The translations under genes and the position numbers were made by a program. DNA of 64,000 bases. It comes from an uncultured Actinomycetes bacterium (lineage in GTDB: Bacteria; Actinomycetota; Actinomycetes; Nanopelagicales; Nanopelagicaceae). The notes below the pieces were generated by a model, which did not search any database, was not told the origin of the DNA, and saw only the letters and a program-made list of their open reading frames with translations. Of this stretch, positions 43,854 through 63,827 are shown piece after piece. Position 1 is the stretch's first letter. Every line of letters starts with the position of its first letter. The stretch covers positions 1 through 64,000 of the forward strand of contig CAIPAI010000032.1 of the NCBI GenBank assembly GCA_903863015.1, written 5' to 3'.

Positions 43854-43921
43854 TGGGCTCTTCAGGCTCGAATTCGCGTACTTTGGGCTACCTAAAAAGA
43901 ATATCTGGTGGCATCCTATAC

Positions 43922-43937
43922 CGTTAGGATCCTAACG
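43922..43937. promoter_or_regulatory. Perfect 16-bp palindrome upstream of hpaE, candidate operator
   Basis: CGTTAGGATCCTAACG is a perfect palindrome in the intergenic region between the PuuD-like gene and hpaE, ending 4 bp before the hpaE ATG. TATACC at 43918-43923 could be an overlapping -10 box. Binding there would block hpaE transcription or translation start. MarR (42640) or GntR (63824) proteins are candidate binders. Confidence 0.55.
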
Positions 43938-43940
43938 ATT

Positions 43941-45419
43941 ATGGGAATGAGGGAGATGTCCAAGATCGTCGTTGCGGGAGTATCTGTTGATACCGGGCAT
44001 TTCATCGGTGGTCAGCGGGTCTACTCTGCGCAGACTTTTTCAGATCACTCGCCGATTGATGGCTCCTTTCTGGGCGAAATCTCGCGCGGTGGGGCAGCAG
44101 AAATCGATCTCGCTGTTTCGGCCGCTCGCGCGGCATTCCCGGGTTGGGCAAAGACTCCTCGGGTCGAGCGCGCACGCATCATGCACGCCATCGCAGATGG
44201 CGTTGAAGCTCGCTTAGAAGAGTTAGCCCAAGTTGAGACCCACGATAACGGAGCACTCATCCGTTCACATCGTCGTGGCGTGATGCCTCGAGTTGCTCAC
44301 AATTTCCGCTTCTTCGCTGATTGGTTACTTAACGAGTTGCATCACGATCCATTCGAAACACGTGGGCATACCAACGTAGTTTCTTGGGATCCATCTGGTG
44401 TGGCCGCACTCATCACTCCGTGGAATGCGCCACTTATGCTGGCAAGTTGGAAGATTGCACCTGCGCTCGCATCAGGTGACACCGTGATTTTGAAACCTGC
44501 TGAGTGGACGCCGCTGAGCGCTTCTCTCCTCTGCGACATTGCGAAAGAAGCAGGTTTGCCAGATGGTGTTTTCAATGTGGTGCAAGGTTTCGGAAATGAG
44601 GCAGGAGCCGCGCTCGTGGCCCATCCGGGAATTTCACGGATCTCATTTACCGGCTCGGTACCCACTGCAAAACTCGTTGCTCGAGCCGCAGCAGATAATT
44701 TGACGCCATGTTCGCTTGAGTTAGGCGGTAAGAGCCCGCTTATCGTCATGGACGATGCTGATTTGGAACTTGCAGTCACTCTCGCCGTTGAGCAGTACGA
44801 CAATGCTGGGCAAGTCTGCTTAGCTGGAACGCGCCTACTGGTGCACGAAAAGATTCGTGAAGATTTTCTGACCGGCTTTAAAGAGCGCGTCTCCAAGATT
44901 GTGCAAGGTGATCCTCGTGTTGATGGAACTGATATTGGGCCGCAGATTCACGAGAAACAATTCACCAAAATTCTTGGCTACATTAATCGCGCGAAAGCAG
45001 CAGGTGCTGACGTAGAAGTAGGCGGGGGAGCGAACGAAAACCTAGGTGGTCTCTATATCCACCCGACGTTGATTTCACACGCCGCTCCCGGCAGTGAAAT
45101 TCTCACTGACGAAGTGTTTGGCCCAGTATTAACGCTGCAAACATTTTCAACTGACGAAGAAGCCGTATCGATGGCCAATGGAACTGAGTTTGGGCTCGCC
45201 GCTGTACTCGTTTCAGGTAATCGCGAAAGAGCAGAGCGCATCTCCGAGCAGTTGGTTGCCGGCACTACCTGGGTCAATTGTTTCTTCGTGCGCGATCTCC
45301 GTGCTCCATTCGGTGGGGCACGTAAGTCTGGTGTGGGTCGCGAAGGCGGTTCCTGGTCTTTTGATTTTTATTCTGAACTAAAAAATACAGTGTTCTCACC
45401 AAACGGCTGGAGGGATTGA
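43941..45419 (+). CDS. hpaE: Aldehyde dehydrogenase, 5-carboxymethyl-2-hydroxymuconate-semialdehyde dehydrogenase (HpaE-like)
   Basis: HpaE oxidises the ring-cleavage aldehyde of homoprotocatechuate with NAD. The protein of about 492 residues has the catalytic Cys in DNAGQVCLAGTRLLVH, the Glu motif LELGGKSP, and the Rossmann stretch ALASGDTVILKPAEWTPLSA. The C-terminal VRDLRAPFGGARKSGVGREGGSWSF closely follows E. coli HpaE. The start may be 43941 or 43956; neither has a well-spaced ribosome-binding site. hpaD begins right after the stop, so hpaE-hpaD-hpaG form one operon. Confidence 0.9.
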   Translation: MGMREMSKIVVAGVSVDTGHFIGGQRVYSAQTFSDHSPIDGSFLGEISRGGAAEIDLAVSAARAAFPGWAKTPRVERARIMHAIADGVEARLEELAQVETHDNGALIRSHRRGVMPRVAHNFRFFADWLLNELHHDPFETRGHTNVVSWDPSGVAALITPWNAPLMLASWKIAPALASGDTVILKPAEWTPLSASLLCDIAKEAGLPDGVFNVVQGFGNEAGAALVAHPGISRISFTGSVPTAKLVARAAADNLTPCSLELGGKSPLIVMDDADLELAVTLAVEQYDNAGQVCLAGTRLLVHEKIREDFLTGFKERVSKIVQGDPRVDGTDIGPQIHEKQFTKILGYINRAKAAGADVEVGGGANENLGGLYIHPTLISHAAPGSEILTDEVFGPVLTLQTFSTDEEAVSMANGTEFGLAAVLVSGNRERAERISEQLVAGTTWVNCFFVRDLRAPFGGARKSGVGREGGSWSFDFYSELKNTVFSPNGWRD

Positions 45420-45420
45420 G

Positions 45421-46320
45421 ATGGGCGAGGTAGTTGGAGCGGGGCTTTTGGCACATGTACCTACGATCATGTTGCCGAAAGAAGTGCGTTACGAACTCAA
45501 CGAAGGGAAAGAGATTTCTCTTGTTACGGGTCTGGAGCGTCTACGTAAAGAAGTCTTTGAAACCGCCGATTACGACACCGTTGTCGTACTTGACTCTCAC
45601 TGGGCTACGACCGTCGAGTTTGTGACCACGTCGCACGAGCGCCGTACCGGCAAGTACACCTCTGAGGAATTACCTCGTGGCATGTCTTCGGTCCCTTATG
45701 ATTTTAAGGGCGATCCTGAACTAGCTATCGAAATCAGCAAGTATGCCGAGAAGCACGGCACGTGGATTACGCCTATCGACGACCCTCACCTACCGACGTT
45801 TTACGCGACGTTGAATCTTTGGAAGTACCTAGGTGAAGGTTTAGACAAGCAATGGGTCAGTATCGGTTGCTGCCAAACTGCCGAGACTGAAGATAACCTG
45901 CGTCTCGGTCGCGCACTCGGAGATGCCATCGATAAGTTGGATCGCAAGGTGCTATTGCTCGCTTCGGGTGCGCTTTCACACACTTTCTATCCGCTCCAAG
46001 AATTGCGCAAACACGAAGCAAGCGACATCTCACACATCTTCACGCCGGAAGCCCGTGAAGCTGATCTTGAGCGGATCGAATGGTTTAAGAGCGGGGATCA
46101 CGATCAAGTACTGCGAACGATGCCGGAGTTTTATAAGTACAAGCCAGAGGCGCGATTTGGTCACTATCTCATGATGATTGGTGCGCTTGGAGAGAATGAG
46201 TGCACCGCACCAGGGCGCCTCTTCAGCGAGTATGAGAACTCAATTGGAACCGGACAGGTACATATCTGGTTTGATCAACCGGAAGCTGGCTGGACCGCAA
46301 AGCTGAATGCCAGTGTCTAA
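45421..46320 (+). CDS. hpaD: 3,4-dihydroxyphenylacetate 2,3-dioxygenase (HpaD, class III extradiol type)
   Basis: HpaD opens the homoprotocatechuate ring between C2 and C3 using Fe(II) and O2. The 299-aa protein aligns with E. coli HpaD as I recall it: AHVPTI near residues 11-16, VVLDSHWATT near 56-65 with a metal His, KYTSEELPRGM, the FKGDPELA stretch, LLASGALSHTF near 179-189 and the C-terminal SIGTGQVHIWF. The family assignment is strong. It lies between hpaE and hpaG in one operon, and its end overlaps the hpaG start by 14 bp. Confidence 0.92.
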   Translation: MGEVVGAGLLAHVPTIMLPKEVRYELNEGKEISLVTGLERLRKEVFETADYDTVVVLDSHWATTVEFVTTSHERRTGKYTSEELPRGMSSVPYDFKGDPELAIEISKYAEKHGTWITPIDDPHLPTFYATLNLWKYLGEGLDKQWVSIGCCQTAETEDNLRLGRALGDAIDKLDRKVLLLASGALSHTFYPLQELRKHEASDISHIFTPEAREADLERIEWFKSGDHDQVLRTMPEFYKYKPEARFGHYLMMIGALGENECTAPGRLFSEYENSIGTGQVHIWFDQPEAGWTAKLNASV

Positions 46321-47200
46321 GAATGTAGAGACACGGAGAATTCTCCTTGATGGGTATCCGGCTGAGGTAGTGCGCCACGGGGACGTTCTCGTAGCCGGAG
46401 ACGGAAGAGAAGTAGCCATTGCAGATGCTACGCACTTGGCTCCAGTGGAACCTACCAAAATCATTGCAGTGCATCTGAACTTTCAGAGCCGTACTGACGA
46501 GTTCATGACCAAGCTCCCTCCTGCGCCTACTTACTTCCACAAACCCATCACGGCATTGAATTCCCACCATGGTGATGTGGTTCGCCCGCAGGGATGTAAG
46601 TGGCTCAATTATGAAGGCGAGATCGTTATTGTCATCGGACGAACTTGTCGCAACATTTCTCCCAAGGATGCCGCCGATTACATTGCCGGGTACACCATCG
46701 GCAATGATTACGGTTTGCACGATTTTAGAGATACCGATGCCGGTTCAATGCTGCGTGTAAAGGGGAGCGACACTCTTGCTCCGGTTGGTCCTGGCTTAGT
46801 TCGTAATTGGGATTTCAGAAATAAGCAGATCCGTACATTGGTAAATGGAGTTGTGAAGCAAGATGACAACACCAAAAATATGGAGTGGGACATGCACTAC
46901 TTGGTCGCTGACATCGCGCGTACCATCACCCTTGTTCCCGGCGACATCCTCTTCTCGGGTACGCCAGCATTTTCACGTCCTGTGCAACCAGGCGATTTAG
47001 TCGAAGTCGAAGTCGAAGGCTTGGGAATGCTCAGTAATCGAATCGTAGAAGGCCCAACGCCGATCCGCACAGATGTGGGCGCGCAACCCACGGAGAGTGA
47101 AGAGGTTATCTCCACAGCCCTTGGCGGGGATTGGGAATTCCGCGGTATACGTACGCCATCTAAAGATCTCTACCCATCTCGAATTGAGGAGAAGAAGTGA
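46307..47200 (+). CDS. hpaG: Fumarylacetoacetate hydrolase family protein (HpaG-like isomerase/decarboxylase)
   Basis: HpaG converts the 5-oxo-pent-3-ene-tricarboxylate intermediate by decarboxylation and isomerisation. The 297-aa protein has an N-terminal 60-residue part and the FAH core: YFHKPITALNSHHGDVVRP, the metal Glu region NYEGEIVIVIGR, GYTIGNDYGLHDFRDTDAG and DILFSGTPAFSRPVQPGD. Within an operon with hpaE and hpaD the HpaG role is most likely, though FAH-family hydratases look similar. Hydratase, isomerase and aldolase genes of the lower pathway (hpaH, hpaF, hpaI) are not recognised in the window. Confidence 0.85.
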   Translation: MPVSKNVETRRILLDGYPAEVVRHGDVLVAGDGREVAIADATHLAPVEPTKIIAVHLNFQSRTDEFMTKLPPAPTYFHKPITALNSHHGDVVRPQGCKWLNYEGEIVIVIGRTCRNISPKDAADYIAGYTIGNDYGLHDFRDTDAGSMLRVKGSDTLAPVGPGLVRNWDFRNKQIRTLVNGVVKQDDNTKNMEWDMHYLVADIARTITLVPGDILFSGTPAFSRPVQPGDLVEVEVEGLGMLSNRIVEGPTPIRTDVGAQPTESEEVISTALGGDWEFRGIRTPSKDLYPSRIEEKK

Positions 47201-47382
47201 AGATTCACGTTGACATGGAGAAATGCCAGCATTACGGACAATGTGTCTTCGAAGCTGAAGATGTTTTCTCTTTAGGCGATGATGGGAAGTTGATTTACAA
47301 GGTTGATGTTGATGATAGTCGTCGCGCGGACGTGGAGTCCGCCGTCGATGTATGTCCGATGCAAGCCATTACGGTCGAGTAG
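47197..47382 (+). CDS. [3Fe-4S] ferredoxin, P450-type
   Basis: A 61-aa acidic ferredoxin. CQHYGQC (Cys10, Cys16) and the later CPMQ give three Cys with Tyr in the place of the second ligand, the pattern of [3Fe-4S] ferredoxins that feed bacterial P450s. A GTG start overlaps the hpaG stop. It is followed by an FAD ferredoxin reductase, so this is a complete electron chain for the two P450s on the island. Confidence 0.92.
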   Translation: MKIHVDMEKCQHYGQCVFEAEDVFSLGDDGKLIYKVDVDDSRRADVESAVDVCPMQAITVE

Positions 47383-47388
47383 TCGTTC

Positions 47389-48567
47389 TTGAAGGTTCTT
47401 ATCGTTGGTGCCGGGCTGGCGGGATTACGGACAGCAGAGTCCCTCCGTGGCGCGGGCTTTGCTGGCGAGATCACGCTCGTGGGGGATGAGCCTTACTTTC
47501 CGTATAACCGGCCACCACTTTCAAAAGATGCACTTGCTAACGGGCTAGAAATAGCGGACCTTGAGTTCAAGCGACGTGAAAGCGTCGCAGACGTAACCTG
47601 GATATTTGATGATTCTGCAACCAGCACTGATTATCAACAGCGGGGTGTGCTTCTTAAATCTGGGCGTCTCGAGTCTTTCGACGTCTTGGTTGCGGCTACA
47701 GGTATTCGCCCTCGCACGCTCAACGTTCCTGGTGCTGAGAAGAGCAAGTTTTCGCTCCGTAACTTTGCGGAAGCGCAAGAGCTCCGTACTTCGATGTTGG
47801 GTGTCCAAAGAATTGTGATTGTCGGCGCAGGTTTCATTGGTTGTGAGATTGCGGCGACGGCTCGCAAACTTGGAATTGACGTAGCAGTGGTGGCGGCCGA
47901 TCCAGAGCCGATGTTTCGGCCACTCGGTGCAGAGTTTGGCCATGCCATGAAACATCGCCATGAAGCACATGGCGTGAGCTTTCACATGAACGCGAAAATC
48001 GCGGGGTATCTCGGAGGGGAGAGCGCCACCGGGGTATCTCTGGAGAGTGGCGAAGAAATTCTGGGTGACTTGTTGATCGAGGCCATCGGATCACTTCCCA
48101 ACACTGAATGGTTAGCGGGGGGATCTCTCGATCTCAAAGACGGCGTGCTCGTCGATTCTTCGATGCGTGCCACGGCCCCTAGCGATGTCTCTATTTACGC
48201 TGTAGGTGATGTTGCTCGATATGCATTCGATCTCTTCGATACCACTCCTCGCAGAATTGAACATTGGAATCTCCCTACGGAGACAGGTCGTCGAGCAGGC
48301 AAGTCGATTGCTCATTTTCTTCACACAGGTGAAGTACTTGCCGAGTCGGTTAATTTTGTCCCATCATTTTGGTCGGATCAATATGAAGATAATCTGCAAT
48401 CTTTTGGGATGCCCGGCATCGCTGACTCTATAAACGTGGTTGAAGGCGATCTCATGGGCGATTGTGTGGTCGAGTATTTGCGTGGCAATAAAGTTGTGGG
48501 AGTCGTCGGTGTAAATACCAGCGCGAAATTAGCGCCGTATCGGAAGAGTTTTCAAGAAACTAATTGA
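47389..48567 (+). CDS. FAD-dependent ferredoxin reductase
   Basis: The 392-aa protein belongs to the BenC/HcaD/putidaredoxin-reductase family. The FAD Rossmann motif IVGAGLAGLRTAESLR is at residues 4-19, PYNRPPLSK near 42-50, the NAD-binding VIVGAGFIGCEIAATARKLG near 143-162, and the YAVGDVARY motif near 271-279. It passes electrons from NAD(P)H to the ferredoxin encoded just upstream. The start is TTG. Its end overlaps the convergent TauE gene by 8 bp. Confidence 0.92.
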   Translation: MKVLIVGAGLAGLRTAESLRGAGFAGEITLVGDEPYFPYNRPPLSKDALANGLEIADLEFKRRESVADVTWIFDDSATSTDYQQRGVLLKSGRLESFDVLVAATGIRPRTLNVPGAEKSKFSLRNFAEAQELRTSMLGVQRIVIVGAGFIGCEIAATARKLGIDVAVVAADPEPMFRPLGAEFGHAMKHRHEAHGVSFHMNAKIAGYLGGESATGVSLESGEEILGDLLIEAIGSLPNTEWLAGGSLDLKDGVLVDSSMRATAPSDVSIYAVGDVARYAFDLFDTTPRRIEHWNLPTETGRRAGKSIAHFLHTGEVLAESVNFVPSFWSDQYEDNLQSFGMPGIADSINVVEGDLMGDCVVEYLRGNKVVGVVGVNTSAKLAPYRKSFQETN

Positions 48568-52672: not shown

Positions 52673-53776
52673 ATGCTCAAGACAAGTACCCTGTCCAGAA
52701 TCGCGGCGAGTGCGCTCATCGCTTCAGTGGCTTTTGCCCCCGGCGCTTTCGCCGCCAATAAGCCTGCTCCGAAACCGGTAACGAAGACGACCGCTAAGCC
52801 AGTCGCCAAGCCGGTGGCCGCGCCTTCGGGACCGTGCGCAATCGTGACGCCAGCTCCAACGCTGCAAACAATCAAAATTGCTGGAACTCAGATCAACACG
52901 ACCGCTGCCGTTCTCGCAGCTGATAAGGCTAATTGCTTTGCCAAGTACGGAATCAAGTTGGCTTGGACCGACGCGTTCCCTGCGCCGGGCGTTGCTCTCA
53001 CGGCACTCGCCGGGGGATCTATTGAAGTGACATACGCACCCACAGTGCCGATCATCAACTTCGTAGTAAACGCTGGCTTGAAGGCCAAGATTTTGGCACC
53101 AGGCGACGGATACGCCCCAGGGCAACAAGCGAAGATTCTCGATAGCGGTACCTCAAAGATGAACGATGACACCGCCGTCCTGGTTAAGACTGGTGGTTCA
53201 ATTAAGTCTTGGGCCGATCTTGAAGGTAAGACGGTCGCCGTCCCAGCCCGCAAGGCTCAGCTCGAAGTCACCATCGCTGCCAAGGTTCGCGAAGATGGCG
53301 GAGATCCCAGCAAGGTGAAGTTCCTTGCTCTCGGAATGCCAGACATGGCTGCCGCTATCAAGAAGGGCGATATTGACGCCGGTGGCGTTGTAGAGCCTTT
53401 TGGCACATCTGGACTTGCTGATGGGCTTACGCTTCTCGGATTCCCAGCTGCTGGTTTCTTCAATGATGGTGGCGCTGTCGGAGTTTGGTTGGCAACGGAC
53501 GCCTGGGCATCCGCTCATCGCGATCTTGCGCTTGCTTTCCAGAAAGCTATGAGTGAGTCGAACGCCTGGGCTGCAGCTCCTGCAAACCTCTCCAAGGTTC
53601 GGGCAGAAATTCCTAAGATCACTGGTGTTACAGCAGCTGAAGCAGCGGCAAGCAATATCCCATTCTTGCCGACCGCAGCAGTTACAGCATCGGATATTTC
53701 TAGTGTGGCAACCAAGATGAACTTCCTGGGCTACATCTCAAAGAAGGTTGATGCCGCTTCGCTACTATTTAAGTAG
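52673..53776 (+). CDS. NMT1/SsuA-type ABC transporter substrate-binding protein
   Basis: The 367-aa protein has a signal peptide (LSRIAASALIASVAFAPGAFA) with a signal peptidase I site and no lipobox cysteine. A Lys/Pro/Ala/Thr-rich linker of about 25 residues follows before the binding domain, which has TIKIAGTQINTTAAVLAADK, the PAPGVALTALAGGSIEVTYAP stretch and the SWADLEGKTVAVP motif of nitrate/sulfonate/taurine-binding proteins. Ligands in this group include taurine, alkanesulfonates, thiamine precursors and aromatic sulfonates. How it is retained without a lipid is unclear; the basic linker may hold it to the envelope. Confidence 0.88.
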   Translation: MLKTSTLSRIAASALIASVAFAPGAFAANKPAPKPVTKTTAKPVAKPVAAPSGPCAIVTPAPTLQTIKIAGTQINTTAAVLAADKANCFAKYGIKLAWTDAFPAPGVALTALAGGSIEVTYAPTVPIINFVVNAGLKAKILAPGDGYAPGQQAKILDSGTSKMNDDTAVLVKTGGSIKSWADLEGKTVAVPARKAQLEVTIAAKVREDGGDPSKVKFLALGMPDMAAAIKKGDIDAGGVVEPFGTSGLADGLTLLGFPAAGFFNDGGAVGVWLATDAWASAHRDLALAFQKAMSESNAWAAAPANLSKVRAEIPKITGVTAAEAAASNIPFLPTAAVTASDISSVATKMNFLGYISKKVDAASLLFK

Positions 53777-53823
53777 TAGCAACTGCTCGCAATCGGCTGG
53801 TAATTAGTACGAAAGGGTCGGTC

Positions 53824-54576
53824 GTGAGGTTTGCGAATCCGAAGAACTGGCTGTGGCTCATCTCCCTCGGGGGATCGATCCTCATCTGGCAATTGGTTTC
53901 CGTAAATCTCAACGACCGGCCTTTTCCGTCTGCATCGAAAATCTCTAACGCCCTATGGGCGATGCTTCAAACGGGCGAGTTTTGGGGCGACTTAGGAGTC
54001 ACCTTTTTAATTGCCATGGTGGGTCTCATAATCGGCATAGTCCTTGCTGTACCGCTGGGGTTGTTGGTGGGGCTCAACGAGTTTGCCTTTAGATCTACCA
54101 AGTTCATCCTGGACTTCTTGAAAGTAATTCCCCCCATCGTGGTACTTCCGCTCGTCTTGCTTATGTTTGGTACCACCATAAAATTCAGCATTACGCTCGT
54201 GGTGTTTGGCGTTCTCTTCTCCGTGATTGTGCAAGCAACATATGGAGTGCGGGATACCGATCCGGTGTTGTTAGATACGCTTTCGGCATTCAACGCTTCT
54301 AAATATGCGCGCTTAAAGTATGCGGTGTTACCTTCGGCCCTACCTTTCATTGCTACCGGTACGAAAATCGCAACTTCTGCAGCAGTCATTGTGTCAATCG
54401 TTACCGGCCTGGTGGGTAGCGGCCCCGGGTTAGGTCACTCCCTCTCTGTTGCAGAAACCGGCGGTAACTTTCCCAATGTCTACGCCTATGTCGTCGTCTT
54501 AGGAGTTGTCGGAATCCTCGTTAATATGCTGGTCTCTGCGATAGATAAGCGGATTATTTTTTGGCGAGGTAAATAA
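53824..54576 (+). CDS. ABC transporter permease (SsuC/TauC-like), first
   Basis: The 250-aa membrane protein has six hydrophobic segments and the EAA-like loop ASKYARLKYAVLPSALPFIATG near residues 158-179 that contacts the ATPase. The N-terminal region matches binding-protein-dependent permeases of the sulfonate/nitrate group. The start is GTG. Its stop overlaps the ATG of the second permease. Two different permeases imply a heterodimeric channel. Confidence 0.9.
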   Translation: MRFANPKNWLWLISLGGSILIWQLVSVNLNDRPFPSASKISNALWAMLQTGEFWGDLGVTFLIAMVGLIIGIVLAVPLGLLVGLNEFAFRSTKFILDFLKVIPPIVVLPLVLLMFGTTIKFSITLVVFGVLFSVIVQATYGVRDTDPVLLDTLSAFNASKYARLKYAVLPSALPFIATGTKIATSAAVIVSIVTGLVGSGPGLGHSLSVAETGGNFPNVYAYVVVLGVVGILVNMLVSAIDKRIIFWRGK

Positions 54577-55346
54577 TGCTCGCACTTTTGCGTCGATTTC
54601 TTATTTCGAGTTGGCTTGTGGTGGTTCTGTTACTTTTCTGGTGGAAAGTATCGGCAAATTCAGAAAGTTACTTTTGGCCACCGCTAAGTCAAATCGCTTC
54701 CCAATTCAAAACGAACTGGCTTTTCGCAAACGTTGCAGATGATGTGCTTCCAAGTTTGAAGAATCTTGCTGTTGGTTATTTTATCGGCGCCCCATTGGCA
54801 CTTTTTGTAGGTGCTCATTTAGGACTCAGCGAAATTGCACAGAAAATATTTTCGCCACTTGTTAACTTCTTCCGGTCGATTCCTGGGGTAGCACTGGTCC
54901 CTATCTTCATCATGCTCTTCGGTATCGGTGATCAATCTCGACGTGTCTCCATCGCTGTTGCGGTTTTCTTCCCTACCCTGATAGCCACAATCGAAGCGGT
55001 GCGTACCTCTGATGCAGTGCTGTTGGACGTATCTCGCAGCTTTAGATTTTCATCTTTTCAGAGTCTCTGGCGAGTGCGTGTTCCAAGCGGGGCACCGATG
55101 ATCTCGTCGGGTCTTCAGGTGAGCTTGCAGGTGGGATTCATAGTTATGATCGTGAGCGAAATGCTGGGTGCTTTTCGAGGGTTAGGAGCATTCACGGTGG
55201 AGGCGCAACAATCATTCATGATTATTGATATGTGGACTGGCATCATCATGCTAGGAATTTTGGGTTACATCTTCAACGTAATATTCGAGTTAATAGAAAA
55301 GCGGGCCCTTCGCTGGTATCGCGGACAGAAAGGCCTCACCTCATGA
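54576..55346 (+). CDS. ABC transporter permease (SsuC/TauC-like), second
   Basis: A 256-aa membrane protein with six hydrophobic segments and the loop SFRFSSFQSLWRVRVPSGAPMISSG near residues 150-174 read in parts, typical of the ssuC family. It is translationally coupled to the first permease and to the ATPase, whose ATG overlaps its stop (ATGA). Confidence 0.9.
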   Translation: MLALLRRFLISSWLVVVLLLFWWKVSANSESYFWPPLSQIASQFKTNWLFANVADDVLPSLKNLAVGYFIGAPLALFVGAHLGLSEIAQKIFSPLVNFFRSIPGVALVPIFIMLFGIGDQSRRVSIAVAVFFPTLIATIEAVRTSDAVLLDVSRSFRFSSFQSLWRVRVPSGAPMISSGLQVSLQVGFIVMIVSEMLGAFRGLGAFTVEAQQSFMIIDMWTGIIMLGILGYIFNVIFELIEKRALRWYRGQKGLTS

Positions 55347-56131
55347 CCCACCCTATGCGCACCGGAGCACGCCTCGAGCTTAAAGACGTGACGAAAACTT
55401 ATACGGGACACGGAGCAGATAAGCACGTACTAGATCACATTAGTTGCATTGTGGAGCCGGGAGAGTTCCTCTCAATTGTGGGTCCCAGTGGTGTGGGAAA
55501 AACAACTCTCCTTCGCCTCTTAACTGGCTTAACGCCCGTTACTAGTGGCGAGATCTTGCTTGATGGGAAGAAAGTCACATCTCCTCCTGAAGATCTGGCA
55601 ATCGTATTACAGGAGTACACGCGCTCTCTTATGCCCTGGCTAACGGTGGAGAAGAATATTGAACTTCCATTGAAGTTAAAGAAAATTGCCAAAGATGAGC
55701 GAGGGGAACGAGTTCAATCCGCGATTATCGAAGTGGGGCTGGAAGGAAATGGTTCTCGCTATCCATGGCAGCTCTCGGGGGGAATGCAACAACGCGTTGC
55801 GATTGCTCGCGCCCTTGCCAGTAGGCCCCGAATTCTCGTCATGGATGAGCCGTTTGCATCGGTTGATGCCCAGACACGCTTAGATCTTGAAGATTTGGTG
55901 CTTAAGGTAAGAGATGATTTCGGTATCACTACGTTGCTTGTTACCCATGACATGGACGAGGCGGTCTATTTAGCCGATCGTGTGTTAGTGCTGACAGGTA
56001 AACCCGCACATGTAGCTGCTGAGATTGCAGTTCCCCTTGTGTACCCTCGAGATCAGGTCGAAACACGAGCTCATCCAGATTTCGGACATCTACGCGGCGA
56101 GATCTATCAACTGATCAGAGGCAAGCGGTAA
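55343..56131 (+). CDS. ABC transporter ATP-binding protein (SsuB/TauB-like)
   Basis: The 262-aa ATPase has Walker A GPSGVGKTT, the Q-loop IVLQEYTRSLMPWLTV, the signature LSGGMQQRVAIARAL, Walker B ILVMDEPFASVD and the H-loop LLVTHDMDEAVYLADRV. It drives the two permeases encoded upstream. A longer open frame reads back into the permease, but the ATG overlapping the permease stop is the sensible start. Confidence 0.95.
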   Translation: MTHPMRTGARLELKDVTKTYTGHGADKHVLDHISCIVEPGEFLSIVGPSGVGKTTLLRLLTGLTPVTSGEILLDGKKVTSPPEDLAIVLQEYTRSLMPWLTVEKNIELPLKLKKIAKDERGERVQSAIIEVGLEGNGSRYPWQLSGGMQQRVAIARALASRPRILVMDEPFASVDAQTRLDLEDLVLKVRDDFGITTLLVTHDMDEAVYLADRVLVLTGKPAHVAAEIAVPLVYPRDQVETRAHPDFGHLRGEIYQLIRGKR

Positions 56132-57961: not shown

Positions 57962-58405
57962 TTAAGCAACCCGCTCTTCATTGATGAGTGTGCGCTTGGT
58001 GCAGATGCCATTTTCAAACCATTGCCAGACACGTGAGCGCTTATTGCCGGTGGCGTCGAGCTGAATCATCTCGTAGAAGTAGCCGCTGGGATCATCCTTG
58101 CGCACCCAGGTGAGCATCATGGTGTTTACGTCAACCTCCCAAGCGCGACCGGTGATGCGATCGGTATCAAACCAGAGTTGCCCGTCTTTGTACTTGGCCG
58201 GAAAGTGGATCACTTCATGGCGACCATCGTCGTAATCGTAAGTATTGATTTGGTAGTACTCGTACGGACCTTCGGTAGGAAATGAATTCTCGAGGCGGGC
58301 CTCATGGCGCTCCACAAAGTTTCCTTGTTGATCAACCCAGACGTAGTGACCCATCCACTTACCTTCGTGGCGTGCCAGCAATGGCATCTCTTCGCGGATT
58401 CCCAT
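57962..58405 (-). CDS. Small conserved lipocalin-like (DUF3598-like) protein
   Basis: The likely ATG gives 147 residues; a longer frame to 58510 has no sensible N-terminus. The sequence is rich in aromatic and charged residues, with HEGKWMGHYVWVDQQG near 12-27, RITGRAWEVDV near 85-95, and DDPSGYFYEMIQLDATG near 105-121. This is the beta-barrel pattern of DUF3598/lipocalin-like proteins. No enzyme residues are evident. An AT-rich stretch at 58440-58482 upstream may hold its promoter. Function unknown. Confidence 0.7.
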   Translation of the reverse strand: MGIREEMPLLARHEGKWMGHYVWVDQQGNFVERHEARLENSFPTEGPYEYYQINTYDYDDGRHEVIHFPAKYKDGQLWFDTDRITGRAWEVDVNTMMLTWVRKDDPSGYFYEMIQLDATGNKRSRVWQWFENGICTKRTLINEERVA

Positions 58406-58481: not shown

Positions 58482-59909
58482 TCAACCCTCTGGCCACCAC
58501 CACGGGTCACGCCCGGTTGATGAATTAATTAAAAGCGATTGTCGACGATAAAACCGCCGGATAGAAATTTTACCCATTCGCGAGCCACCAATTCCGGAGA
58601 GTTTGAAAGCTTGTTTCTCGCCCTCATGCATGACGCCGGTGAGCGCGGCATCATTAATGCTCACAGCGCCAGCATCAATCTGTCGTCCTAGTTTCTTAGC
58701 GCGTTCCTCATCTCCGAAGATGGCGGCGGAGAGACCGTAAATGGTGTCGTTGGCGAGAGAGAGTACCTCTTCATCGCTCGTAAATTTCATGACTGGAATA
58801 ATCGGTCCAAAAGTTTCTTCAGTCATGACCTTCATCGAGTGATTTACATTGGTGAGGATGGTTGGTTCGAGATAGGCACCGCCGCCGAGGATCTTTAATT
58901 CCCCGCCAGCAGTTGCCACTGCGCCTTTGGCGTAGGCATCTTCAAGATGGCTTTGAATAGTGGCAATTTGGTCTTCCGCGATCATGGGGCCAATGCCGCG
59001 TCCCTCAAGATCCGGGTAGTTAACGCCGAGCGCCGAAGCCATGGGGGAGATGCGCGAAACGAATTCATCGTGAAGAGATTCGTGAATATAGACGCGTTCA
59101 ATCGAAAGGCAGCTCTGTCCGGAGTTCGCAGTGGCGCCCCAGAGAATTCCGGGAACTGCGCGATCTAGGTTGGCGCCTGGCAGCACGATTGCTGGATCTT
59201 TTCCGCCTAATTCAAGTGATGCGGGTATGAAATTGCGGGCGGCATTTTCTGCGACGATGCGGCCGGTTTCTACGCTTCCGGTGAAGCAGACCAGATCAAC
59301 GAGCGGAATCAGTGCGGCACCGGTTTCGCCTGCTCCTTCGATGAGACCAACGACTTCACCGATCTCTGGAACATCGATGAGTGTCTTTTCCAAAGGTGCT
59401 AAGAATCGCGGGGTGATTTCGCTGGGTTTGATGATGACGGCGCACCCTGCGGCAAGTGCTGGGATGGCATCAATCAATGCAAGAAGGAGTGGGAAGTTCC
59501 ACGGGCTGATGATTCCCACAAGCGGGTATGGACGTATGGAAGGGGCTACTGAGACACCAGGCATTGTGGTCTGTTGAATGGTTTCTTCATCGAGCAGTTC
59601 GACAACTTGACCGGCCCAGCGCTTTAAGCCATCGACACTCACTTGTACTTCAATGCTGCTCTCGGTTCGACGACCCGTATCTTCGGTGAGAGCTTGAGCA
59701 AGTTCGTCCTTGTGTGCAATGAGTGCATCACGCCACCGAAGGAGTACTTCGGCGCGATGTGTTGGACCGGCATCTTGCCACCGCTTTTGATTTGCCCGGA
59801 GGCGACTTGTGAGAGCAACTAATTCCTCATGCGAGGGAGCCTCGAGTGGGCGATCGTTCAAGCCGGTGCGAGGATTCCTTACTTGCACGCCTGCATCTAG
59901 ATTGCTCAC
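58482..59909 (-). CDS. Aldehyde dehydrogenase family protein
   Basis: With the GTG that overlaps the upstream stop (GTGA) the protein is 475 residues, a normal ALDH length. Catalytic motifs are SLELGGKDP (Glu) and ANSGQSCLSIERVYIH (Cys), and the cofactor stretch is ALAAGCAVIIKPSEITP. It oxidises an aldehyde with NAD(P). A longer frame to 60041 overlaps the nitrilase-like gene and reads as an out-of-frame tail, so I reject it. It is coupled to the nitrilase-like gene, suggesting successive steps. Confidence 0.88.
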   Translation of the reverse strand: MSNLDAGVQVRNPRTGLNDRPLEAPSHEELVALTSRLRANQKRWQDAGPTHRAEVLLRWRDALIAHKDELAQALTEDTGRRTESSIEVQVSVDGLKRWAGQVVELLDEETIQQTTMPGVSVAPSIRPYPLVGIISPWNFPLLLALIDAIPALAAGCAVIIKPSEITPRFLAPLEKTLIDVPEIGEVVGLIEGAGETGAALIPLVDLVCFTGSVETGRIVAENAARNFIPASLELGGKDPAIVLPGANLDRAVPGILWGATANSGQSCLSIERVYIHESLHDEFVSRISPMASALGVNYPDLEGRGIGPMIAEDQIATIQSHLEDAYAKGAVATAGGELKILGGGAYLEPTILTNVNHSMKVMTEETFGPIIPVMKFTSDEEVLSLANDTIYGLSAAIFGDEERAKKLGRQIDAGAVSINDAALTGVMHEGEKQAFKLSGIGGSRMGKISIRRFYRRQSLLINSSTGRDPWWWPEG

Positions 59910-60970
59910 TTCGATTCCCAATTTCGTGCCAAGTTCTCGATCGCTTCGCGATGGTGCGATAAGAAGTAAGAACGCTCTGCAGTGGCGTCGGCTAGACCAT
60001 TCGGAGCATCGACATTGTGGCGCGCATATTCTTGAGCCCACATCGCGGTCTTGGTGCGCGCAAGCAGATTTCCCATGGCGGGTTTGGCTTTATGGCGACG
60101 CACAGCGCTGAGATCGATAGCGGCATTTGCCACCATTGATTCGCCAAAGCCCGCCTCGGCAAGAACGAGTCCGGTGTAATCGAGTACTTTGCTCATTCCG
60201 TCGGTGGAATTCGCAGGCACGGGTGATCCGTAAAGGCCGCCTGAGTTGGCGCTCACCAAGTAGCAGCCGCTCTCCCAAGCGCGTGCGCGCTTTGCAACAT
60301 CTTTGGGCGTGAGCGCAGGTGAGCCCACTTCACTCGTGGAGTGCACGAGCACTTCGGCACCCCGTAGCGCGAAGGCGCGCGCAAGTTCTGGATATTGAAT
60401 CTCTTCGCTGGCGATAGCCGCGAGATTTCCGATTTCAGTTTTTACTACGGGGAAAACTGCATCGATGCCGTAGAGATCTAAATACTTATCCCATACATCC
60501 CAGGGACTGGGGGAGAACATGGAGTGCAAGCGGCGATAGCGGAGCACTACTTCGCCGCTCGGGTCGATGATGAAAGATGTTTGAAAGTAGAGCTCGGCAA
60601 AATTGGGATCGCTCTCGTACACATTTCCGGAAAGGAACGTAGAGTGCTTCTGAGCCACTTCACCTAATTTTTCGTATTCGACTCCGGCTGGATCGAGCGC
60701 CGCCTTCTCTTTCCATGCAGGCACTGCATCGCCCATGGGGTAACCGGTGAGGAAGTACTCGGGGAGCACGACGAGTTTGATATCTCCGCCGAGAAAGGCG
60801 TTAGCGGCTCCGATATTTGCCGAGATGCGCGAGATCGAGGAGAGCATCGCAGCGCGGGCTTCTTCGTGATTGCAATTATTGACAGCTTCGGTGCGCGCTT
60901 GCAGAGCGAGTGCCCGATAGTGAGTTCGCTCTTCGGTAAATGGTTTGTTCTTCGCGCCGACAAAAGTCAT
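59906..60970 (-). CDS. Nitrilase-superfamily protein with altered catalytic triad
   Basis: The 354-aa protein has the carbon-nitrogen hydrolase fold. The Glu motif LVVLPEYFLTGYP (Glu71) is intact, but the Lys motif is YRRLHS (Arg147 for the usual Lys) and the Cys motif reads IASEEIQYPELAR with Ser188 in the nucleophile position. The expected Glu-Lys-Cys triad is therefore Glu-Arg-Ser. Either it is a pseudoenzyme or a Ser-using variant, or the alignment hides a shifted Cys; the only nearby residues are Ala. It is co-transcribed with the NTF2-like gene upstream and the ALDH downstream. Confidence 0.8.
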   Translation of the reverse strand: MTFVGAKNKPFTEERTHYRALALQARTEAVNNCNHEEARAAMLSSISRISANIGAANAFLGGDIKLVVLPEYFLTGYPMGDAVPAWKEKAALDPAGVEYEKLGEVAQKHSTFLSGNVYESDPNFAELYFQTSFIIDPSGEVVLRYRRLHSMFSPSPWDVWDKYLDLYGIDAVFPVVKTEIGNLAAIASEEIQYPELARAFALRGAEVLVHSTSEVGSPALTPKDVAKRARAWESGCYLVSANSGGLYGSPVPANSTDGMSKVLDYTGLVLAEAGFGESMVANAAIDLSAVRRHKAKPAMGNLLARTKTAMWAQEYARHNVDAPNGLADATAERSYFLSHHREAIENLARNWESK

Positions 60971-61419
60971 GACTTACTCGCTGGAGTAACCCAATCGCCG
61001 GCGCCATATGGATCGGGAAGTGGTTGAGAAGCGTGCTCATGCACAATTCCCCACTTGCCCGTCTCGTCTTTGCGCAGCACCCAGGTGAATCGAAGGCGGA
61101 GCATGTCTGCTTTGCCATGTGCTTGGTAATCGAGATCAAGAATTCCCTGAATGCTCACCAACGATTCGTTGCCGATCATCTCGGGACCTTCGATCCAGCG
61201 ATGACCAGTGACTCCCATCGGCGAGGTTTGATAGGCACTCCACCCGCGGGCCACATTTTCATAACCGTGGCTCGCCCAACGAGGCCCCTCGATGAAGACA
61301 TAGACCTCTTCGCTCTGCTCGTAGCCGTTTAAGACACCGGGGATTTCACGGGCTTCGATTGCCACCATGAAAGCCTCAAGGGCGCTTAGAGCGGAACGGC
61401 ATTCCGCCTCGTGGAACAT
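60967..61419 (-). CDS. SnoaL/NTF2-like protein (DUF4440-type)
   Basis: A 150-aa cone-shaped-barrel protein with a typical NTF2 pattern: helix ALSALEAFMVAIEAREIPGVL near residues 9-29, the strand VYVFIEGPRWASHGYENVARGWSAY near 39-63 and the WGIVHEHASQPL end near 124-135, ending a few residues on with PASKS. Such proteins are isomerases, dehydratases or non-catalytic binding proteins. Its stop overlaps the nitrilase-like ATG. It diverges from the quinone-oxidoreductase-like gene across 66 bp. Confidence 0.8.
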   Translation of the reverse strand: MFHEAECRSALSALEAFMVAIEAREIPGVLNGYEQSEEVYVFIEGPRWASHGYENVARGWSAYQTSPMGVTGHRWIEGPEMIGNESLVSIQGILDLDYQAHGKADMLRLRFTWVLRKDETGKWGIVHEHASQPLPDPYGAGDWVTPASKS

Positions 61420-61485
61420 GTCGGAGAATCTACTAGGAAGAGGGGGTACTTGCCCAGAGGGGGTGCAAGGGCGTTAACTCCTCCT

Positions 61486-62415
61486 GTGTCCGACAATTCC
61501 GCCCTCATCGCAACTGCCGCCAATGAGCTCACTCTTGGCCTCGGTTCCCCTGCTATTCCCGGAGAGGTCGAACTTGAACTGGTCATTTCCCAGATCTCAC
61601 CACTCGACCGGCAGGTAGTTGCTGGCTTCTTCCCGCCGGCCAAACCGTGGCCCTTGATTCCTGGGACAGCGGCGGTAGCAAAGGACGCGGACGGCAATCA
61701 CTACTTTGCATTCGCGGAAAGTGTGGGTGGCGGTCTCACGCGAGATGGCATTCATGCACAGCGCTTCTCGTTGCCGCAATCGGTGCTTCACCCGATCCCC
61801 ACTGGTTGCGATTATGTTGCCATCGCGTCAGCGGTTACCTCGCTCGCCACTGCGCGTTCGATTCTGCAAGATATCGCCAAAGTAAAGAGCGGAGATACTC
61901 TCCTTATTCTCGGTGGTACCGGTTCGGTGGGTCAGGCCAGTATCGCCGTAGGGCGTGCGCTCGGTCTCACCATGGCGGTCGCATCTCGTGATGGTGCTGA
62001 CATTGATGGTGTGCGCGGCGTTCGTAACGATGCAATTGCGGAAGGTGCTCGCGCAATCCTCGGTCGTGGTGCAGATGTCATCATCGACCCTGTCGGCGGG
62101 GAAATTACTGGAAATGCAATGAGCGCAGGCGCTCCCGATTGCAAGCACATCCTCCTGGGGTTCAGCTCGGGCGCCATGATGCCCATCCTCGCCCCCAAGT
62201 TCCTCGGTGGAGAGCATCAACTCATCGGTTTCAATCTCCTCCGTCGTTCTCATGAAGGGTTGGCAGAACACGTGCGAGCTGCTGTGCAAGACGTGATCGC
62301 AGGAGGTTTTGCTCCAGAAATAGATTCCATTCATCCGCTCGCTGATGGTGTTGCTGCTTATGCACACGCGGCTAAAGTTCGCGGTCGTGTGCTCCTGCAA
62401 GGAAGTGGAGCATGA
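61486..62415 (+). CDS. Quinone-oxidoreductase-like medium-chain dehydrogenase
   Basis: The 309-aa product (GTG start) has the MDR pattern: an N-terminal GroES-like part with PWPLIPGTAAVAK, and the Rossmann motif LLILGGTGSVGQASIAVGRALG near residues 140-161, followed by GRGADVIIDPVGGE. There is no zinc-binding Cys cluster, as in zeta-crystallin-like quinone reductases. It reduces a C=C or carbonyl with NADPH; the substrate is unknown. A frame opening at 61411 reaches into the divergent promoter region and is unlikely to be the start. Its stop overlaps the next gene (ATGA). Confidence 0.83.
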   Translation: MSDNSALIATAANELTLGLGSPAIPGEVELELVISQISPLDRQVVAGFFPPAKPWPLIPGTAAVAKDADGNHYFAFAESVGGGLTRDGIHAQRFSLPQSVLHPIPTGCDYVAIASAVTSLATARSILQDIAKVKSGDTLLILGGTGSVGQASIAVGRALGLTMAVASRDGADIDGVRGVRNDAIAEGARAILGRGADVIIDPVGGEITGNAMSAGAPDCKHILLGFSSGAMMPILAPKFLGGEHQLIGFNLLRRSHEGLAEHVRAAVQDVIAGGFAPEIDSIHPLADGVAAYAHAAKVRGRVLLQGSGA

Positions 62416-63827
62416 ATACACAATTCGATCTCATCGTTATAGGCGCGGGGACTACGGGCATTCCATGTGCCGTAGAAGCCGCCAATCTCGGTGCGAAAGT
62501 CTTGTTGCTTGAAAAATCTCACGAAGTAGGTGGCACGCTCTTCACTTCTGGTGGTCATATGTCAGGAGCCGGCACTAAGCGCCAAAAGGAACGTGGAATT
62601 GAAGATTCGCACGCGGCGCACCTGGCAGACATAGATCGCATTAGTCATGGAACCGCTCGAAAAGATCTCTCAACGCTTGCCGTAACCCTTGGAACTGAAA
62701 CCATCGATTGGTTAGATGATCAAGGTTTCGAATTTCACGAAAAGGCACCGCGGATTGTTTACGGACACGAACCCTACGGAATTGCTCGCACCTACTATGG
62801 AACAGAATCCGGACTCTCAATTTTAAAAGTTCTCAAGCGATTACTTGACGAACGCATCGCCCTTGGGGGTATTGACCTGCGGCTCAATACGGGGGCGACA
62901 TCTCTCATCGAAGAGGGCGGAGTGGTAGCGGGTGTGCGTACATCCGCTGGTGATTTCACGGCCAAGAACGTCGTCATTGCTACCGGTGGCTTTGGTGCTA
63001 ATCCAGAAATGTTTGCCCGACTGGAAGGTGCGCCGCTGGTTTCTGCGGCGTGGCCCACCTCTACCGGAGATGGAATCGCCATGGCTGAAGAGGTCGGGGC
63101 GGCGATCGCTGGGGCTGGCACTTACCTTCCGACATTTGGTGGTCTTCCGTCGCCGGACGGCGGAGTTCGTATCCGTTGGGACGACCGTCCACTCTTAGTC
63201 GCTAAAGAGCGACCACCACACGAAATTTATGTCGATCGAAGCGGTAATCGTTGGGTTGCAGAAGATGAGCCAAGTATCGATATTAAAGAGCACGCACTTG
63301 TCGGCATTGAGGGAATGACCTTCTGGACTTTCTTCGATTCGGCAGCGCTCGAGGCGAGCCAACCTATGGTGATCGGTTGGAGTACTGATGATCTGAAAGC
63401 GCACGCAAATGTGCTTCCGGGAGTTTTTTCTGGAAATACTATTGAAGAGACCGCCGCGCACATGGGTGTAGACCCTGCTGGTCTTGTCTCAACCGTGGCC
63501 CGTTACAACGAGCATGTGGCCGCGGGTGTAGATACTGATTTTGGAAGGATGCACCTCCCGGCTCCCATTGCGCAGGCTCCGTTTTACGCTATTCAAAATC
63601 ATGCAGTTACTTTGATTACGTTCTCGGGCATTGATGTGGATGTGAACTTGCGTGTACGTAAGGCTGACGGATCGATCATCCCAGGGCTTTACGCTGCAGG
63701 AGAGGCGTTGGGTGCGGCTGCAACGATGGGCAAGTCTTTCTGTGGCGGTTTGTTGGCGATGCCGGCAATTGCTTTCGGTCGACATATCGCTCGCGAACTT
63801 GCAGGAGCCGGAAGTTTTTCACAATGA
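62412..63827 (+). CDS. FAD-dependent fumarate-reductase/3-ketosteroid-dehydrogenase-like oxidoreductase
   Basis: The 471-aa protein has the FAD Rossmann motif IVIGAGTTGIPCAVEAANLG near residues 8-27, VGGTLFTSGGHMSGAG near 39-54, and the C-terminal GLYAAGEALGAAATMGKSFCGGLLAMPAIAFGRHIA (about 424-460). This is the fumarate-reductase/SdhA flavoprotein superfamily, which also includes 3-ketosteroid dehydrogenases and urocanate-reductase-like enzymes. It could desaturate a substrate from the neighbouring genes. It overlaps the upstream gene and the GntR ATG at its end. Confidence 0.85.
   Translation: MNTQFDLIVIGAGTTGIPCAVEAANLGAKVLLLEKSHEVGGTLFTSGGHMSGAGTKRQKERGIEDSHAAHLADIDRISHGTARKDLSTLAVTLGTETIDWLDDQGFEFHEKAPRIVYGHEPYGIARTYYGTESGLSILKVLKRLLDERIALGGIDLRLNTGATSLIEEGGVVAGVRTSAGDFTAKNVVIATGGFGANPEMFARLEGAPLVSAAWPTSTGDGIAMAEEVGAAIAGAGTYLPTFGGLPSPDGGVRIRWDDRPLLVAKERPPHEIYVDRSGNRWVAEDEPSIDIKEHALVGIEGMTFWTFFDSAALEASQPMVIGWSTDDLKAHANVLPGVFSGNTIEETAAHMGVDPAGLVSTVARYNEHVAAGVDTDFGRMHLPAPIAQAPFYAIQNHAVTLITFSGIDVDVNLRVRKADGSIIPGLYAAGEALGAAATMGKSFCGGLLAMPAIAFGRHIARELAGAGSFSQ

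Follow-up and report, generated by a model that had tools for sequence, protein, structure and literature searches.

A gene at positions 59906-60970 of the minus strand of the window (the whole 64,000-nucleotide stretch of Nanopelagicaceae DNA that was analysed) encodes a 354 aa protein of the nitrilase fold, in which the catalytic Lys and Cys are replaced by Arg and Ser. The best explanation, to which we assign a probability of roughly 60%, is that this Glu-Arg-Ser (E-R-S) protein belongs to a distinct, ancient and widespread bacterial subfamily of the nitrilase superfamily, that its active site was remodelled as a unit, and that it is a putative catabolic enzyme encoded in an operon with an aldehyde dehydrogenase (ALDH) and a DUF3598 protein.

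A nitrilase-fold protein with a Glu-Arg-Ser triad

Pfam analysis assigns a CN_hydrolase domain (PF00795) to the protein, whose gene begins with ATG, at 101.8 bits against a cut-off of 23.2 (E = 5e-29). The AlphaFold2 (AF2) model, derived from a 54-row alignment, has a mean pLDDT of 93.1 and a pTM of 0.92, and its best solved matches in Foldseek are the aliphatic amidase 2uxy (E = 6e-21), the H. pylori formamidase and mouse Nit2. The solved structures that match it best in sequence are those of NitFhit, aliphatic amidase and formamidase. The CN_hydrolase domain and the alpha-beta-beta-alpha fold make the protein a member of the nitrilase superfamily; the Glu-Lys-Cys (E-K-C) triad of that superfamily is absent. 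Furthermore, the scores against the NCBIfam equivalogs of the aliphatic amidase/formamidase group fall far below the curated cut-offs (57.4 against 427 and 59.5 against 406 bits).

When the protein is aligned with PDB nitrilases and amidases and with relatives, the catalytic Glu position is taken by E71, the Lys position by R147 (LRYRRLHS versus QKYRKI) and the Cys position by S188 (IASEEIQYPE versus LIICDDGNYPE). This alignment, together with the codons GAG, CGC and AGC, confirms the first-pass annotation, which had read these residues at the Glu-Lys-Cys positions of a full-length gene. In the AF2 model, Ser188 opens a helix (188-192) straight after a strand (181-187), which is the nucleophile-elbow position; E71 closes strand 64-71, R147 lies just past strand 141-146, H210 is near the end of strand 207-211, and K223 sits in the first turn of helix 222-234. 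From this secondary structure and the alignment, we infer that the active-site side chains converge.

The host genome encodes two other nitrilase-like proteins (L002 and L003), both of which keep a normal E-K-C triad, and the triad change is therefore specific to the gene at 59906-60970. Genomes of the same genus carry copies that are 94-95% identical, with the triad residues unchanged. Comparison with the copy in one same-genus genome gives a dN of 0.036 and a dS of 1.84 (dN/dS about 0.02), and the gene is therefore under strong purifying selection. This ratio and the identical residues in relatives rule out a decaying gene or a sequencing error.

A rebuilt active site fixed across several phyla

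A total of 84,980 species genomes were scanned with patterns that avoid R147 and S188, and the best 80 of the 553 relatives obtained were kept, so that the sample is skewed to close relatives. Among these best 80, Ser188 is found in 80 and Arg147 in 79, with a single Gln (L077). Separate draws of 296 and 378 genomes contributed six more members, all of them E-R-S. Over 99 distinct members, Ser188 never varies and Arg147 is missing once, leaving Glu-Arg-Ser in 98 and Glu-Gln-Ser in one.

Conservation extends well beyond the triad, to a nine-residue signature whose codons in the window lie on the minus strand: Glu71 (GAG, 60758-60760), Gln130 (CAA, 60581-60583), Arg147 (CGC, 60530-60532), Asp158 (GAT, 60497-60499), Ser188 (AGC, 60407-60409), Glu190, His210 (CAC, 60341-60343), Glu214 (GAA, 60329-60331) and Lys223 (AAA, 60302-60304). 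Although overall identity among members is only about 55% across several phyla, the complete signature is present in 96 of the 99, a count that includes the six members from the independent draws; the exceptions are R147Q, E190D and H210N, once each. Glu71 is invariant. Gln130 occurs in 99/99 members and in none of the relatives aligned, most Cys-bearing relatives having Asn there. Similarly, Lys at position 223 is confined to the E-R-S clade among the sequences aligned, the position being Trp in most Cys-bearing relatives. Compared with Cys-bearing relatives, the clade has thus undergone four joint replacements at conserved positions, all now fixed: Gln for Asn at 130, Arg for Lys at 147, Ser for Cys at 188 and Lys for Trp at 223. 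The first-pass annotation had counted two of three catalytic residues as changed; the replacement of Lys and Cys stands, but the change is larger, affecting at least four conserved positions.

Asp158 is invariant in the clade and lies 11 residues after R147, in a loop where the alignment is ambiguous; this is the spacing between the catalytic Lys and the fourth catalytic Glu in MtCPA (Lys121, Glu132; PMC4812014) and in human beta-ureidopropionase (K196, E207; PMC10741476). Mapped by way of a Cys-bearing relative, S213 and E214 correspond to two residues lining the pocket of MtCPA, Ala183 and Ile184 (PMC4812014). His210, present in 98 of the 99 members and Asn once, is also His in Glu-Arg-Cys (E-R-C) relatives and in tandem E-K-C relatives.

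The elbow alignment is without gaps and unambiguous in E-R-S and E-R-C members, and a search across the E-R-S clade for a conserved Cys that might serve the site found none. Hence, a shifted alignment or a replacement Cys can be ruled out.

Phylogeny and relatives with other triads

With columns 147 and 188 excluded from the tree calculation, the E-R-S proteins group in a single clade (bootstrap 100, SH-aLRT 98), which answers affirmatively the question, raised at first pass, of whether Arg-Ser is conserved as a clade. No Lys-Cys member was found inside it, and the nearest Cys-bearing relatives form separate clades. The phyla represented are Actinomycetota, Cyanobacteria, Bacteroidota (with a Kapabacteria MAG among the members), Pseudomonadota, Bacillota (a Sporosarcina) and Acidobacteriota; the family is sparse in each phylum, being found in 12 of 244 cyanobacteria and, in the draws from other phyla, in at most about 1-2% of genomes. 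In a first tree, degenerate N-terminal domains of tandem proteins fell within the E-R-S clade, a placement that was judged to be long-branch attraction (branch 2.13, partial-length alignment), and these domains were omitted from a second tree. Apparently long E-R-S ORFs at two loci (L035 and L060), in which Pfam detects no further domain, are probably the result of read-through and not of fusion. A gammaproteobacterial E-R-S protein (L140:3549-5510, plus strand) has a Tat-type signal (MAGDFTRRDFLGIGGAAAAG) in front and is probably exported.

The nearest outgroups show partial states of the site change. E-R-C paralogues (L139, L164 and L166), found in two Rhodospirillales genomes, share with the E-R-S proteins the Arg at the Lys position, Glu190 and His210, but retain Cys, Asn130 and Trp223, and look like a state between E-K-C and E-R-S. 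All three types are present among today's sequences. The order E-K-C to E-R-C to E-R-S may be proposed from these sequences, an order on which the deep branches of the tree are not decisive; a joint clade of E-R-S and E-R-C was not recovered in the tree without columns 147 and 188.

In the same two Rhodospirillales genomes (loci L128-L139 of G458, a 2.9 Mb MAG from Lake Baikal with 19 matches, and L162-L171 of G651) the group has expanded, with E-R-S, E-R-C, Glu-Lys-Ala (E-K-A) and E-K-C proteins side by side. These genomes also encode tandem two-domain nitrilase-like proteins (ORFs of 674-701 aa; L130, L132, L133, L167, L170 and L171), in which the first domain is degenerate and the second carries E-K-C. 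Other related clades carry Ala, Gly or Val at the Cys position. Five proteins (L135, L136, L141, L143 and L190) have Val or Thr there, with a two-residue deletion right after, and the four Val-bearing ones form their own clade (bootstrap 100). A related Glu-Lys-Ala clade (L010, L012, L015 and L173) spans haloarchaea and bacteria; at its Tsukamurella locus (L015), a cyclase-family gene adjoins and indolepyruvate oxidoreductase genes are nearby.

A conserved operon with an aldehyde dehydrogenase and a DUF3598 protein

In the window, the gene order is SnoaL-like, E-R-S, ALDH, DUF3598, all on the minus strand. The stop of the SnoaL_3-like gene (60967-61419) overlaps the E-R-S start (ATGA), and the GTG start of the ALDH gene (58482-59909), whose product has the catalytic Cys and Glu motifs, overlaps the E-R-S stop (GTGA). 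The DUF3598-type protein, a ten-stranded beta-barrel of 147 aa, is encoded at 57962-58405. The ALDH/DUF3598 arrangement recurs in several phyla, in keeping with the earlier view that the gene is embedded in an operon.

Neighbouring genes were clustered over 84 loci by conservation score, so that opposite-strand shadow ORFs in GC-rich loci do not win. The ALDH gene is at +1 on the same strand in 49 of the 84 loci (54 loci in all), and the DUF3598 cluster is found in 38; each occurs near E-R-S genes across five named phyla. The unbroken E-R-S/ALDH/DUF3598 trio is seen, for example, in Sporosarcina (L036), a Rhodospirillaceae MAG (L063) and several Nostocales. Outside this three-gene core the neighbours vary. 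A SnoaL_3-like homologue is close to the E-R-S gene in five loci. A dihydropyrimidinase-like amidohydrolase is found at 11 loci in four phyla, and other recurrent neighbours, some of them named by eye from their sequence, include isochorismatase-like hydrolases, a DUF4437 cupin, DUF1838, a CaiB-type CoA transferase, HMG-CoA-lyase-like, LeuC/D-like and BKACE proteins, and MFS and ABC importers. These neighbours point to catabolism, and the amidohydrolases among them suggest a nitrogen-containing ring, so that the pathway possibly degrades nitrogen heterocycles.

Also in the window, an ABC importer (binding protein, two permeases and ATPase; 52673-56131, plus strand) is a possible uptake system, with a weaker tie to the operon; in Nonomuraea, related permeases adjoin E-R-S genes. 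Divergent from the operon are a quinone-oxidoreductase-like gene (61411-62415, plus strand) and a gene for an FAD-dependent fumarate-reductase/ketosteroid-dehydrogenase-like protein (62412-63827, plus strand), a relative of which is also near the Kapabacteria E-R-S gene (L033). Inspection by eye of positions 43908-48567 (plus strand) identified homoprotocatechuate-type ring-cleavage-like genes, for an aldehyde dehydrogenase, an extradiol dioxygenase, a fumarylacetoacetate-hydrolase family protein and a ferredoxin reductase.

In the cyanobacterial genomes sampled, a DUF3598 protein is present in all 12 that have an E-R-S protein versus 18 of 244 overall (hypergeometric p = 2.6e-16, shared ancestry ignored); in one of these genomes the two genes are unlinked, more than 1 Mb apart. 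The model of the DUF3598 protein is a ten-stranded barrel (pLDDT 95.9), with plant BFA1, a Nostoc DUF3598 structure, phycobiliprotein lyases and nitrobindin as its nearest structures. Of 29 cyanobacterial loci, 19 (L066:7191-7961, plus strand, and 18 others) have a red-chlorophyll-catabolite-reductase-like gene close to the E-R-S gene, and in most Nostocales loci it lies just upstream. This gene and the likeness of DUF3598 to phycobiliprotein lyases and nitrobindin provide a lead towards a tetrapyrrole pathway, and only a lead, since no such reductase gene was seen at the E-R-S loci of other phyla.

Proposed function and alternative explanations

Since nine putative pocket residues are fixed in several phyla, the E-R-S protein is most likely an active, re-tooled catabolic enzyme and not a relic or dead protein. 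For its catalysis, order of steps and class of substrate, we propose that a small C-N or C=O substrate would still be bound at the usual place in the pocket, where Arg147 and Ser188 would hold an oxyanion or carboxylate and Glu71, with Asp158, would act as general base. Bond cleavage would then proceed through attack by Ser188, or by an activated water held by Ser188, replacing the Cys thioester route, and the product or its partner would be an aldehyde or semialdehyde that is handed to the ALDH. The dedicated ALDH suggests that an aldehyde is either consumed or formed. Certain observations count against this explanation. Arg is a poor proton donor, the genes around the three-gene core vary, and the fold can be maintained without a nucleophile, as it is in the related clades that have Ala, Gly or Val in place of Cys. 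Cys-to-Ser replacement leaves human beta-ureidopropionase inactive (C233S; PMC10741476) and strongly diminishes the activity of MtCPA (C158S; PMC4812014); such losses in canonical enzymes would argue against E-R-S catalysis, yet in the E-R-S proteins the surroundings of the residue appear to have changed too.

The earlier proposal, that selection maintains the protein for a role other than standard nitrilase chemistry, is supported by the purifying selection, the multi-phylum clade, the co-substituted residues and the conserved operon. What that chemistry might be allows several answers. Tentatively, and at somewhat less than even odds, the subfamily switched the nitrilase fold from Cys-thioester hydrolysis to another chemistry built on Ser188, Arg147 and the new Lys223, as a serine enzyme or a Lys/Arg-based lyase, and passes an aldehyde to its dedicated dehydrogenase in an undescribed catabolic pathway. 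A true serine hydrolase, forming an acyl-ester on Ser188 with the aid of Glu71 and possibly Lys223 or His210 and acting on an amide, carbamoyl or ester substrate, is conceivable but on the unlikely side. Ser188 is invariant and placed at the nucleophile elbow, the new invariant Lys223 and the retained His210 offer candidate partners, and amidohydrolase and isochorismatase neighbours fit such a role; however, these two residues are putative contacts of Ser188 judged from sequence, His210 is present in Cys-bearing relatives too, Glu by itself is a weak base for Ser, and related enzymes are inactivated or crippled when their Cys is changed to Ser (PMC10741476, PMC4812014). Less credible again is an enzyme that does not hydrolyse its substrate (a lyase, isomerase, hydratase or decarboxylase), with Lys223 or Arg147 handling a carbonyl or carboxylate and the product feeding the ALDH. 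The ALDH partner and the changes of Trp to Lys and Lys to Arg alongside that of Cys to Ser would suit it, whereas the pocket location of Lys223 is putative and the open-access literature searched yielded no example of such chemistry on a nitrilase fold.

It is improbable that the E-R-S protein performs no catalysis and is a pseudoenzyme that senses a ligand or forms a structural or regulatory subunit of the ALDH. The loss of Cys and Lys, the related clades with Ala, Gly or Val, the tandem proteins that couple a degenerate nitrilase domain to an E-K-C domain, and the tight coupling of the E-R-S gene to that of the ALDH are all compatible with such a role; against it, the ALDH gene is not adjacent at many loci, and the former active-site residues, with the signature in 96 of 99 members at about 55% identity, show no relaxed constraint and are held more strictly than would be expected for a site released from catalysis. 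Finally, Pfam and the fold speak for superfamily membership, but it is highly implausible that the gene is decaying or encodes an ordinary nitrilase or amidase whose Cys is misaligned or lies elsewhere; this reading is contradicted by the gap-free elbow, the lack of a conserved Cys and the dN/dS of about 0.02.

Relationship to known systems and significance

The best PDB matches by both sequence and structure, AmiE (2uxy) and AmiF (2dyu, 5g3o), share with the E-R-S protein the alpha-beta-beta-alpha fold, the catalytic Glu and, in the ambiguously aligned loop, an acidic residue after the Lys/Arg position, and differ from it in the exchanges of Lys for Arg, Cys for Ser and Asn for Gln, at about 20% identity. 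Beta-ureidopropionase and N-carbamoylputrescine amidohydrolase (8pt4, 5h8i) likewise have the superfamily fold and an acidic residue 11 after Lys, the possible counterpart of Asp158, and the dihydropyrimidinase-like neighbours of E-R-S genes recall pyrimidine degradation; these enzymes, however, are canonical Glu-Lys-Glu-Cys proteins that Cys-to-Ser replacement kills or cripples. The bacterial E-R-S clade appears to be undescribed, and it may be included in the uncharacterised 'class 13' nitrilase subgroup of CDD. Searches of the open-access literature covered inactive and Ser-type nitrilases, DUF3598/DUF1838 and the gene set; they found neither a report of the clade nor a similarity-network survey of the superfamily. 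The sole precedent found there for natural E-K-S or E-R-S triads is the cephalopod symplectin/vanin-like proteins, among which Ser arose several times in squid (PMC5541922). The squid proteins share the natural E-R-S triad with the bacterial clade, but belong to the eukaryotic biotinidase/pantetheinase family, have an extra base domain, and bear Ser in several lineages, not in one clade; that study contains no assay of them (PMC5541922).

For annotation, the names 'carbon-nitrogen hydrolase' and 'nitrilase-related' assign a function that the E-R-S residues do not support. With E-K-C, E-R-C and E-R-S proteins coexisting today, the clade represents a test case for the rebuilding of a catalytic site. 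The findings also indicate an unrecognised catabolic module, comprising the E-R-S protein, the ALDH and the DUF3598 protein, in soil, freshwater and cyanobacterial genomes, through which the DUF3598 protein gains a partner.
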